64,000 nucleotides of DNA, taken from contig JACZKS010000009.1 of assembly GCA_014859895.1 (NCBI GenBank), positions 1 to 64,000 on the forward strand, read 5' to 3'. The DNA is from Rhodospirillales bacterium (lineage in GTDB: Bacteria; Pseudomonadota; Alphaproteobacteria; Rhodospirillales; Shumkoniaceae). Position numbers and translations under genes: made by a program. Under the pieces are notes generated by a model. It had not been told where the DNA came from. It saw only the letters and a list, made by a program, of their open reading frames with translations, and ran no database searches. Shown in pieces: positions 58,316 through 61,932 of the stretch. Numbering within the stretch: the stretch's first letter is position 1; each line of letters begins with the position of its first letter.

Positions 58316-58344
58316 GGGGCCGCCTGCTGGCGGCCCCGTTTTTT
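58316..58344 (+). terminator. Rho-independent terminator
   Basis: GGGGCCGCC-TGCT-GGCGGCCCC is a perfect 9-bp stem with a tetraloop followed by GTTTTTT. It ends the dehydrogenase transcript and abuts the stop of the convergent kinase-like gene. Confidence 0.95.
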
Positions 58345-59999
58345 CAGGCCGCCGGCCTGCCGTCCTCGGCGATCGGCAAGGTGAACGACGCCACGACCCC
58401 GCCCCCCATCTTGTCGCCGATGCTGAATTCCCCGGCGTGGGCCTCGACGATGTGCTGGCAAATCAGCAATCCGGTTCCCAGTTCCCCCGGCTTCGTCGAG
58501 ACATAGGGATAAAACAGGCGGTCGCGAGCCGCACTGGCAATGCCGACGCCCGCGACGATCGCCGTTCCCTCGACCTGGAACCAGACGCGCCTGCCGTTGC
58601 GCCGGCCGGTGCCGACCCGGAGTGCCCGCTGCGGGCCTTCGACGCCGACCATCGCCTCGACGCAGTTACGCGCCAAGCTGACGACCACCTGGGCAATCTG
58701 CACGGGGTCGGCCGTCACCCGCGGCAGGTTCCCCGCGAGGTCAAGGTCGACCACGATGTCGCCCTCGTTTCGCACCAGGTCGATGGCGTCGCGGATGATC
58801 TCGTTGAGATCGACAGCTCGCCTGTCCGTCTCCCGGCCGACGATCTGCCGGACCCGGTCGATGGTTTCACCGGCCACCATCGCCTGCCGGAGAACGAAGT
58901 CGAAGGCCTCGTCCATATCCTTCATCGACGCCGACTGGGACGCCAGGCGGCGCCTCGCGTCATACGCTCGCGCGGTGAGGGCGGCCAACGGCGGGTTCAT
59001 ATCCCGGACCAGGCTGGAGGCGATCTCCTCGATGCCGCTACGGCCCGACATGCGGGCCAATTCCAGTGCCAGTTGCCGATGCTTCTCCTCGGCATTGCGG
59101 CGCTCGGTCACGTCGTGAACCACGCCGCTGGCCCGCACGGGCGTCCCATCCGGTTTCTTCTCGATCTCGCTACTGATCTCCAGATGGCGGACCGCCCAAT
59201 CCGGCCGGATGACACGCAGTTGCCCGATGTCGAGGTTATGCCCCATTTTCGCCAGCAGGTTGAGGGCTTCCGCCGCGCGCTCGCGATCCTCGGGATGGAC
59301 CGCCTCGAGGAAAACGTCGATGGACATCGGCGCGTCCGCCGGGAGCCCCAGGATGCTCCCGACCTCTCGCGACCAGGCAATCCGGCCGCTCGCATAGTCG
59401 TAGCTCCACGATCCCAGGTGGGCAATCCGTTGCGCTTCCCTCAGGCGGCTCTCGCTCTGCTCGAGGGTCGCGAACATGTCGTCGAGGCGCGCGATTGCCT
59501 GATCGAGCGTCCGCAGGGGAATTCTGCGCAGGACGATCACGACGGCGCCGGCCAGCCCGCAGGAGAGAGCGAACACCAGCACGGTTTCGAGGAGGATCGG
59601 CAACAGGCTGACGGCGGTTTCAACCCACCCGATCACCTGCCCGCCATCCTCGAAGCTCCGCGTCCGGGTCAGGACCGGAAAAGCCGGGTCCCCTCCCACC
59701 GTCCGAACCAGGTTGCCCCGCGCATCCATGACGCGTACACGGGTCCTGCTGGAAAAAAGCGACGTCGACACCACGTCGCCAATGCGTTCGGTCTGGAATA
59801 TCCAGGTTTCGGGAAAGCGATAATTAAACCGGGTCAGGTTCTGCACGATCAATTCGGTCTGGTTGCTCAGGAACCGGGCCTCGCCTCGATAGGAGGCGAT
59901 ACTGAACACCAGCGGCGCAAGGACGGCAACGCCGACGGCGACCGCCGCGGCCGAGCGGATGATTGTTTTTCTGACGCTGCCATAGACTTGCCGTTGCAT
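58344..59999 (-). CDS. Membrane histidine kinase-like protein lacking the phospho-acceptor His (probable pseudokinase)
   Basis: A 551-residue sensor with a membrane segment at about 13-36, a periplasmic domain of roughly 95 residues, a second segment (130-158), a PAS domain (about 190-300) and a C-terminal dimerisation/ATPase region. In the H-box the expected H-E-x-N-x-P-L pattern reads VRDMNPPLAAL: Arg332 (codon 59004-59006) replaces the histidine. The N-box Asn remains (SLARNCVEAM) and the G2 GTGLLICQHIVEAH is nearly normal, but the G1 D-x-G-x-G motif is degenerate (TAIVAGVGIA). It cannot autophosphorylate in the usual way. It starts seven bases after the periplasmic binding-protein gene, so the two probably form one sensing unit. 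No response regulator is adjacent. Confidence 0.82.
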   Translation of the reverse strand: MQRQVYGSVRKTIIRSAAAVAVGVAVLAPLVFSIASYRGEARFLSNQTELIVQNLTRFNYRFPETWIFQTERIGDVVSTSLFSSRTRVRVMDARGNLVRTVGGDPAFPVLTRTRSFEDGGQVIGWVETAVSLLPILLETVLVFALSCGLAGAVVIVLRRIPLRTLDQAIARLDDMFATLEQSESRLREAQRIAHLGSWSYDYASGRIAWSREVGSILGLPADAPMSIDVFLEAVHPEDRERAAEALNLLAKMGHNLDIGQLRVIRPDWAVRHLEISSEIEKKPDGTPVRASGVVHDVTERRNAEEKHRQLALELARMSGRSGIEEIASSLVRDMNPPLAALTARAYDARRRLASQSASMKDMDEAFDFVLRQAMVAGETIDRVRQIVGRETDRRAVDLNEIIRDAIDLVRNEGDIVVDLDLAGNLPRVTADPVQIAQVVVSLARNCVEAMVGVEGPQRALRVGTGRRNGRRVWFQVEGTAIVAGVGIASAARDRLFYPYVSTKPGELGTGLLICQHIVEAHAGEFSIGDKMGGGVVASFTLPIAEDGRPAA

Positions 60000-60006
60000 C
60001 GGCGGC

Positions 60007-60840
60007 CTACTTTCCTTCGCGCAGCGGCACAATGCCGACGCTTTCCAGAATGTCGCGCCCCTCGGGCGAGGCCGCGAAGTCCAGGAAGGCCCGCGCCGCG
60101 GCCCCGGTCTCGGGGCGGGTGATGAAGTGGAACGTCTTGGTCAGATCATAGGTGCCGTTGCGGATGGTCTCGACGGTGGCGGCAACGCCATCCAGCGCCA
60201 GGGCCTTGATCGGCCGCCTCTCGGCGAGGACCAGGGACAGCGAGTTGGGGCCGAAGGACCCGGGGATCGTTTCGACCATTTCGGCCGCTTCCTGGTCGGT
60301 ATAGGCAACCGGCGCGATCCTTTTCTCAGCCGCCTCCTGCCAGGCAGAAGTCAGCCGGGGAAGGAAACGCATCAGGATTTCGGTGTCGCCGTCGGACGGC
60401 GGCCTAAGGATAAAGCGGATCGGCGTACCGTCACCCCACGCGGTGATCCTTTCCTCATAAATGTCGACGATCTCCGTGCTGCGGATGGTGCTGCGCGGAT
60501 TGTCGCGCCGCACGGCGAACACCAGCGCCGTCGTGCCGTAGGGCCGGGCAGTAAGTCCCAGGCTGCGCTCCGCCGCCTTCAACGGCCGTGAAGTCAGGCC
60601 GATGTCCAGCGCGCCAGCAACCACCGCCTTGATAGCCCCAGACGTGCCGACGCTGGGCAGGACGATGCCGGTGAGCTCCGGGCGCCGTTTCGTCAGGCCG
60701 TCAAGCAGTTGCTGGGCGCCACCAAGGGCCGCTCCGGTGCCGCCAATTCTAAGCGTCTGTTCCGCCGCAGCCACGGGGCTGCCATAGCCCGCCGATCCGA
60801 GCAAAAGCACCGCAGCCAGCAAGATCCTCAGACCCGCCAT
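60007..60840 (-). CDS. PstS-like periplasmic binding protein
   Basis: A 277-residue protein with a signal peptide ending near residue 26 (SPVAA-AE) and a type II periplasmic-binding fold. TLRIGGTGAALGGAQQLLDG and SVGTSGAIKAVVAGALDIGLTSRPLK resemble the anion-binding loops of phosphate-binding PstS-like proteins. No ABC permease genes are nearby. Its only partner is the kinase-like membrane protein seven bases downstream, so it probably serves as the ligand receptor of a signalling complex rather than of a transporter. GGGAAGGA precedes ATG 60840. Confidence 0.88.
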   Translation of the reverse strand: MAGLRILLAAVLLLGSAGYGSPVAAAEQTLRIGGTGAALGGAQQLLDGLTKRRPELTGIVLPSVGTSGAIKAVVAGALDIGLTSRPLKAAERSLGLTARPYGTTALVFAVRRDNPRSTIRSTEIVDIYEERITAWGDGTPIRFILRPPSDGDTEILMRFLPRLTSAWQEAAEKRIAPVAYTDQEAAEMVETIPGSFGPNSLSLVLAERRPIKALALDGVAATVETIRNGTYDLTKTFHFITRPETGAAARAFLDFAASPEGRDILESVGIVPLREGK

Positions 60841-60933
60841 CGCCGTTCCTTCCCTCGGCCGGCTTCGTGTCGTGCCGTTGTTATGGTGCGATCTTAGCCC
60901 ATCGGCCGCGATGATCCCAGCCCTTACCAGGGA

Positions 60934-61932
60934 TCAGAGCGGCCGAATCGGCCGCTGCGCGGCTTCGTCGGCCACCGCCAGCGGATTGGCCAGCGGCAAG
61001 CCGAAACCTTCCGCCTCGATCTCGAAGACGTCGCCCGGCACCGCCTTGATGCCGGCGGCGAAACTGAGGGTCGCGGTGCCGAAGAAATGGCAGTGCGCAT
61101 CGCCGGGCCGGCGGAACTGCGGATACTTGAAATGGTGGTGCTCGAGGTTGGCGATGGAGTGCGACATGTTGTCCTCGCCGCTGACGAATTCGGCCTCCCA
61201 CAGCACCTTGCCGGCCCGCAGGATGCGGCTCCTGCCGGCAACGTGGCCGGGCAGTTCGCCAAGGAGCAGTTCGGGCCCGAACGAGCAGGGCCTGAGCTTG
61301 GAATGGGCAAGATAGAGATAGTTCTGGCGCTCGGTGACATGGTCGGAGAATTCGTTGCCGAGCGCGAAGCCGAGCCTGAACGGCGTACTGTCGGGGCCAA
61401 TCACATAAAGGCCGACGATCTCTGGTTCCTCGCCGCCGTCCAACGAGAAATCGGGCATGGCCAGCGGATGGCCGGGCGAAGCAACGATGCCGCCGTCGCC
61501 CTTGTAGAACCACTCCGGCTGGATGCCGGCGCGGCCCGGCCTCGGCTTGCCGCCTTCCAGGCCCCAGCGGAACATTTTCATGGAGTCGGTGAGGTCTTCC
61601 TCGCCCTTCGCCGTTCCCTGGTGCATGGCGGCCCGGGCACTGGCGCTGCCCAGGTGGGTCAGCCCGGTGCCGGTCACCAGCAGGTGGGCGGGGTCGGGAT
61701 GCAGGAGGGGCGCCAACAAGCGGCCGTCGGCGACGACGGCGGCGTAGTCCGCCTTCTCGCGGCCGGCCCGCTCGGCCACCAGGTCGGCCAGCGGCCGGCC
61801 GGCGGCGATGGCGTCCTGGGCCAGATGGTAGGTGCCGGGCGTGCCGGTCAGCACGGTCAGCGTGCCCTGCCCCTCGTCGACCCGGCCAACGGCAACCTTG
61901 CCGTCGCCGGCCGTGAATTGCACCAAGCGCAT
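60934..61932 (-). CDS. FAH-fold protein of the GguC/AraD1 type
   Basis: A 332-residue protein of the fumarylacetoacetate hydrolase superfamily resembling GguC/AraD1 proteins found in sugar and pentonate operons. Recognisable blocks are LLVTGTGLTHLGSASARAAMH, PEWFYKGDGGIVASPGHPL, EIVGLYVIGPD and the metal-site region LGNEFSDHV. Family members act as dehydratases or hydrolases of 2-keto-3-deoxy acids. GGGGG precedes ATG 61932. It lies 37 bp downstream of the aldehyde dehydrogenase and shares its transcript, so a step in 2-keto-3-deoxypentonate breakdown is likely. Confidence 0.88.
   Translation of the reverse strand: MRLVQFTAGDGKVAVGRVDEGQGTLTVLTGTPGTYHLAQDAIAAGRPLADLVAERAGREKADYAAVVADGRLLAPLLHPDPAHLLVTGTGLTHLGSASARAAMHQGTAKGEEDLTDSMKMFRWGLEGGKPRPGRAGIQPEWFYKGDGGIVASPGHPLAMPDFSLDGGEEPEIVGLYVIGPDSTPFRLGFALGNEFSDHVTERQNYLYLAHSKLRPCSFGPELLLGELPGHVAGRSRILRAGKVLWEAEFVSGEDNMSHSIANLEHHHFKYPQFRRPGDAHCHFFGTATLSFAAGIKAVPGDVFEIEAEGFGLPLANPLAVADEAAQRPIRPL

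Follow-up and report, generated by a model that had tools for sequence, protein, structure and literature searches.

What can a histidine-kinase-like membrane protein transmit once its phosphate-accepting histidine is gone, and why is it encoded beside a PstS-like periplasmic binding protein (PBP) that has no transporter partner? Both questions arise from two adjacent minus-strand genes in the window, the 64,000-nucleotide stretch of Rhodospirillales bacterium DNA analyzed here. The answer favored, at a probability of roughly 0.6, is that the genes encode a two-gene receptor, gated by the PBP, whose DHp-CA part acts by protein contact rather than by autophosphorylation.

The PBP gene (60007..60840, minus strand) encodes a 277-aa protein with a signal peptide and a PBP_like_2 match (E 1e-32), while the kinase-like gene (58344..59999, minus strand) encodes 551 aa comprising sensor, PAS, DHp and CA parts. 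The earliest start in the kinase-like frame is a TTG at 60032, overlapping the PBP gene; the natural one, an ATG at 59999, lies 7 bases past the PBP stop codon (60007-60009) and is preceded by a ribosome-binding-like site, AAGGAAAG, at 60010-60017 within the PBP gene. The preliminary description had placed the pair at 58344-60840 with seven bases between the genes and an open kinase-like frame, and this arrangement holds, the frame running for 551 codons. All on the minus strand, the domains follow one another as the sensor (residues 1-175; 59475..59999), in which two membrane helices flank a periplasmic domain of about 100 aa, the PAS domain (residues 180-305; 59085..59462; PAS_3, E 2.4e-9), a DHp region without the acceptor His (residues 306-396; 58812..59084), which is the least conserved part, and the CA (HATPase_c) domain (residues 397-551; 58347..58811).

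Two catalytic motifs are altered. The H-box reads SLVRDMNPPL, with Arg332 (codon 59004..59006, minus strand) in place of His and Asp in place of the following Glu (RDMNPP versus HExNQP). The G1 box (residues 476-487; 58539..58574, minus strand) reads VEGTAIVAGVGI, in which Asp is replaced by Gly and about four extra residues are present; the expected DxGxG appears as GTAIV. The remaining boxes, N (SLARNCVEAM), F (LFYPYVSTK) and G2 (ELGTGLLIC), are intact, and because of this the protein may still bind nucleotide. Only HATPase_c (E 9e-10) and PAS_3 exceeded the cut-off in the Pfam scan of the kinase-like protein; HisKA was not matched in it, nor did the genome search give a C170 match. The acceptor column is occupied in 44 related DHp-CA sequences; 42 of these carry His, and Arg occurs only in the window protein and its orthologue. 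The earlier claim of an Arg at the H-box His and a degenerate G1, with the rest of the ATPase domain intact, is therefore borne out by motifs and Pfam matches alike, and by its sequence the protein would not qualify as an active HisKA/HATPase_c kinase in respect of the His, the HisKA match or G1.

A single true orthologue was found, 84% identical, in the other genome of the genus compared (G001). Its H-box, SLVRDLKPPL, keeps the Arg-Asp and has also lost the next Asn, and its G1 box, VEGTGIGPGVGI, likewise is without the Asp, GTGIG standing where DxGxG is expected. The PBP gene is again 7 bases away, the neighbors are unchanged, and the kinase-like frame is open over 551 codons in both species without an indel. 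The shared Arg-Asp and altered G1 mean that the loss is neither a sequencing error nor the accident of a single strain. The preliminary description had considered that orthologues might retain the His; the sole orthologue carries Arg, and the Arg and G1 changes are both common to it. Judged from this one species comparison, the catalytic losses are probably older than the split of the two species.

Selection since that split has differed by domain. From codon-change counts between the two species (NG86, with bootstrap 95% intervals), dN/dS is 0.25 (0.18-0.34) for the whole kinase-like gene, 0.18 for the sensor, 0.27 for the PAS domain and 0.19 (0.09-0.34) for the CA domain, which is 90% identical. 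DHp residues 312-396 are only 69% identical, the lowest conservation of the protein, with a dN/dS of 0.52 (0.27-1.00); since this interval touches 1, the relaxation shows clearly when domains are compared and less clearly in absolute terms. In seven orthologous kinase pairs with intact H-boxes from the same genomes, namely six ordinary kinases and the CA-degenerate C162, the DHp is 86-98% identical and the CA domain 73-94%, and the DHp is never the less conserved. The difference in identity, DHp minus CA, is -0.21 for the window gene versus +0.07 (sd 0.05) across the seven pairs. Given these contrasts in dN/dS and identity, the window gene appears to be maintained while its phosphotransfer domain, and not its ATPase fold, has been freed from constraint, a pattern consistent with a pseudokinase that is being maintained. 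Early decay, in which kinase function has gone and the gene is turning into a pseudogene, could also account for the lost His and G1 and the relaxed DHp. This is unlikely given the low dN/dS of the gene, its sensor and its CA domain, the full-length frames free of indels in both species, and the conservation of the adjoining PBP (83% identical, dN/dS 0.26). The proposal in the preliminary description that the output is not classical phosphotransfer thus gains support from the orthologue's Arg and G1 change and from relaxation on the DHp but not on the CA domain, as far as sequences can indicate.

A second alternative, also improbable, is that of complementary half-kinases, in which the window protein would supply the CA domain, the orphan PAS kinase C162 would supply the acceptor His, and a heterodimer of the two would phosphorylate in trans. 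C162 (G000:C162:6248-7798; L128, L180) and its orthologue (G001:C6:14492-16030; L136, L181) keep HEINQP and have lost the N-box Asn, the G1 glycines and the F box. With a conserved DHp (dN/dS 0.15) and a relaxed CA domain (0.39), C162 is the mirror of the window gene, and of all the genome's HisKA-type kinases these two score lowest for HATPase_c (47.7 and 43.1 bits). G002, of the sister genus, has a C162 relative (L182) whose CA domain is intact, and searches of it gave no window-type gene, but that genome is only 73% complete. Moreover, the lost G1 Asp should weaken ATP binding by the window protein, the two proteins are only 33% alike, no closer than other pairs, their genes sit on different contigs, and the co-occurrence is a single event. 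It is because of this one co-occurrence and the lost G1 Asp that the reading is given so low a probability. Its fuller form, an obligate heterodimer of the PBP-gated window protein and C162 in which a periplasmic ligand governs trans phosphorylation of the second protein, is quite unlikely. Other kinases had been flagged by motif patterns as being without His or G1; reading of their sequences showed the His to be present in those flagged for it, C162 to be truly CA-degenerate, and the G1 boxes of L028, L013 and L091 to be incomplete.

In HisKA proteins, phosphatase activity is carried by a Thr or Asn four residues after the His. A window protein that remains an active kinase through another acceptor, or that serves as an ATP-dependent phosphatase, is very unlikely, for although the N, F and G2 boxes are retained and His307, the sole His in the helix entering the DHp, is kept in both species, this residue precedes the acceptor position by 25 residues and so hardly answers to the other nearby His that the preliminary description had allowed for, the G1 Asp is lost, and the residue four after the acceptor position is Pro in both species.

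The other half of the question concerns the PBP. It is a distant PstS relative, scoring 67 bits against the PstS family model TIGR02136 (cut-off 206.6), and its nearest solved chain by profile is 1twy. AlphaFold2 models had a pLDDT of 50 for the PBP (5 sequences) and 37 for the kinase-like protein (single sequence), too low for use. As had been reported, the gene is without a transporter partner: pstC, pstA and pstB are absent beside it, where the neighbors are the kinase-like gene, an aldehyde dehydrogenase (Aldedh), an FAA hydrolase, a TRAP transporter and an alcohol dehydrogenase (ADH). The missing transporter is explained by the sensor, which is the conserved partner of the PBP. Sensor residues 1-175 match no Pfam family, and in their alignment (A1) W66 is invariant. 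Sensor homologues (E ≤ 0.001) occur in 26 of the 317 genomes of the order and 34 of the 398 of the phylum, about 20 of these 34 being strong. A PBP homologue lies immediately upstream, ending within about 70 bases, in 40 of 42 loci selected by the sensor, one of the two exceptions having a PBP fragment where its contig ends; conversely, another 19 loci were chosen by PBP match, and each has the sensor directly downstream (both sets of counts include the two genomes of the window's genus). SBP-coupled receptors are marked by a sensor gene that keeps a binding-protein gene at its side, and this co-conservation strongly supports the receptor/transducer pair first proposed. Across the family the sensor is joined to HisKA kinase, hybrid kinase, GGDEF and GGDEF-EAL outputs, and the window genome itself has a second PBP-sensor pair, on C96, whose kinase retains the His (HDFNN). 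The window pair is thus supported, by sequence comparison, as a member of a PBP-coupled receptor family, here with a putatively non-catalytic output. A search of genome contigs with the kinase gave no relative, a 13-member PBP alignment had no stretch usable for searching, and a search with a closer PBP alignment (A3) gave five loci, mostly of Alphaproteobacteria PBPs. None of the genome's 85 receiver-domain matches is on the 102-kb contig; this says little by itself, since canonical family members have a receiver gene nearby in some cases and lack one in others.

Several members of the same PBP-sensor family (L165, L166, L168-L172 and L174, from family f22, genera g45 and g52, together with L091) have an H-box of the form HHL[RQ]EP. 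Their ATPase motifs are degenerate to varying degrees: the second G1 Gly is gone and often the N-box Asn and G2 glycines as well, although L091 retains the N-box Asn. These members probably represent a second, CA-side route to a pseudokinase output. At L171 (4870-6609, G169), two more consecutive genes overlapping PBP matches adjoin the PBP-sensor pair and form a small duplicated cluster.

In the two-gene receptor favored here, the PstS-like protein would catch a solute in the periplasm and dock on the periplasmic domain of the sensor, and the signal would reach the DHp-CA part through the membrane helices and then the PAS domain. Predicted to be incapable of autophosphorylation, with the acceptor His absent and the G1 Asp lost, this part would be retained for its shape and work by contact, much as DivL or NifL does, most likely by binding and adjusting another regulator such as a transcription factor or a histidine kinase that is itself active. 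In DivL, which is without kinase activity, Tyr replaces the His and the N, G1, F and G2 boxes remain (PMC4211667). The likeness lies in a histidine kinase fold that retains most of its other boxes but carries a non-phosphorylatable residue where the His would be, and in action by contact (PMC4211667); the architecture differs, as the window protein, unlike the alphaproteobacterial DivL, has a periplasmic sensor, a conserved PBP gene partner and an altered G1. In NifL, a DHp/GHKL part without phosphotransfer blocks NifA through contact, and it is this PAS plus DHp/GHKL output, with partner binding, that resembles the window protein (PMC12998174). However, NifL has neither a PBP partner nor a membrane sensor, and the window protein scores 67 against the NifL model TIGR02938 (cut-off 242). 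An evolved ChrS pseudokinase heterodimerizes with HrrS (PMC9491836). By sequence, the nearest proteins for the PAS-DHp-CA part are FixL/DctB/ZraS-type kinases (HPK4-like; solved chains 4gcz and 9jfj), in which, unlike the window protein, the acceptor His and DxGxG are present.

On the receptor side, NspS-MbaA, LuxP-LuxQ and BctC-BctE each have a free periplasmic binding protein that feeds a membrane sensor with a kinase or GGDEF-EAL output (PMC9602780; PMC8967002). The window pair shares this pairing of a free binding protein with a membrane sensor, and differs in a sensor without a Pfam family and an apparently catalytically dead output. The binding proteins of these three systems presumably belong to families other than that of the window PBP. 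Shewanella PdgA/PdgB, considered as a related system, were dropped as cytoplasmic diguanylate cyclases.

Both pseudo-histidine kinases and SBP-coupled sensors have been described before; their combination, which was not found in the open literature searched, appears to be new. The pair adds an evolutionary case in which a transmembrane histidine pseudokinase goes with a solute-binding protein and selection is measured domain by domain. It also draws attention to PBP-coupled sensors that form a family with no Pfam model and have had their outputs swapped. The PBP clan is prevalent in GGDEF, EAL and HD-GYP proteins, yet according to a review SBP_bac_3 is the sole one of its 27 Pfam families to have been studied in c-di-GMP networks (PMC8846402), and the PBP-sensor pairs offer free PBPs with a defined receptor for testing in such networks.

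On one side, the pair is flanked by plus-strand genes, those of the TRAP transporter, preceded by a GntR/FCD regulator, and that of a zinc alcohol dehydrogenase; upstream on its own strand are a gene without a Pfam match, the aldehyde dehydrogenase and the FAA-hydrolase gene. These surroundings look like a catabolic island for sugar acids or related compounds, conserved in the sister species. Within the island, the gene at 60934-61932 encodes a 332-aa product without a Pfam match at E 1e-5 that, judged by eye, resembles an FAA-hydrolase-like sugar-acid enzyme. The stretch 60841-60960 (minus strand), which separates the PBP gene from its upstream neighbor, holds a strong hairpin (z -2.9; 1 shuffle in 200 was equally stable) that lacks a T run and may be a terminator or a leader.
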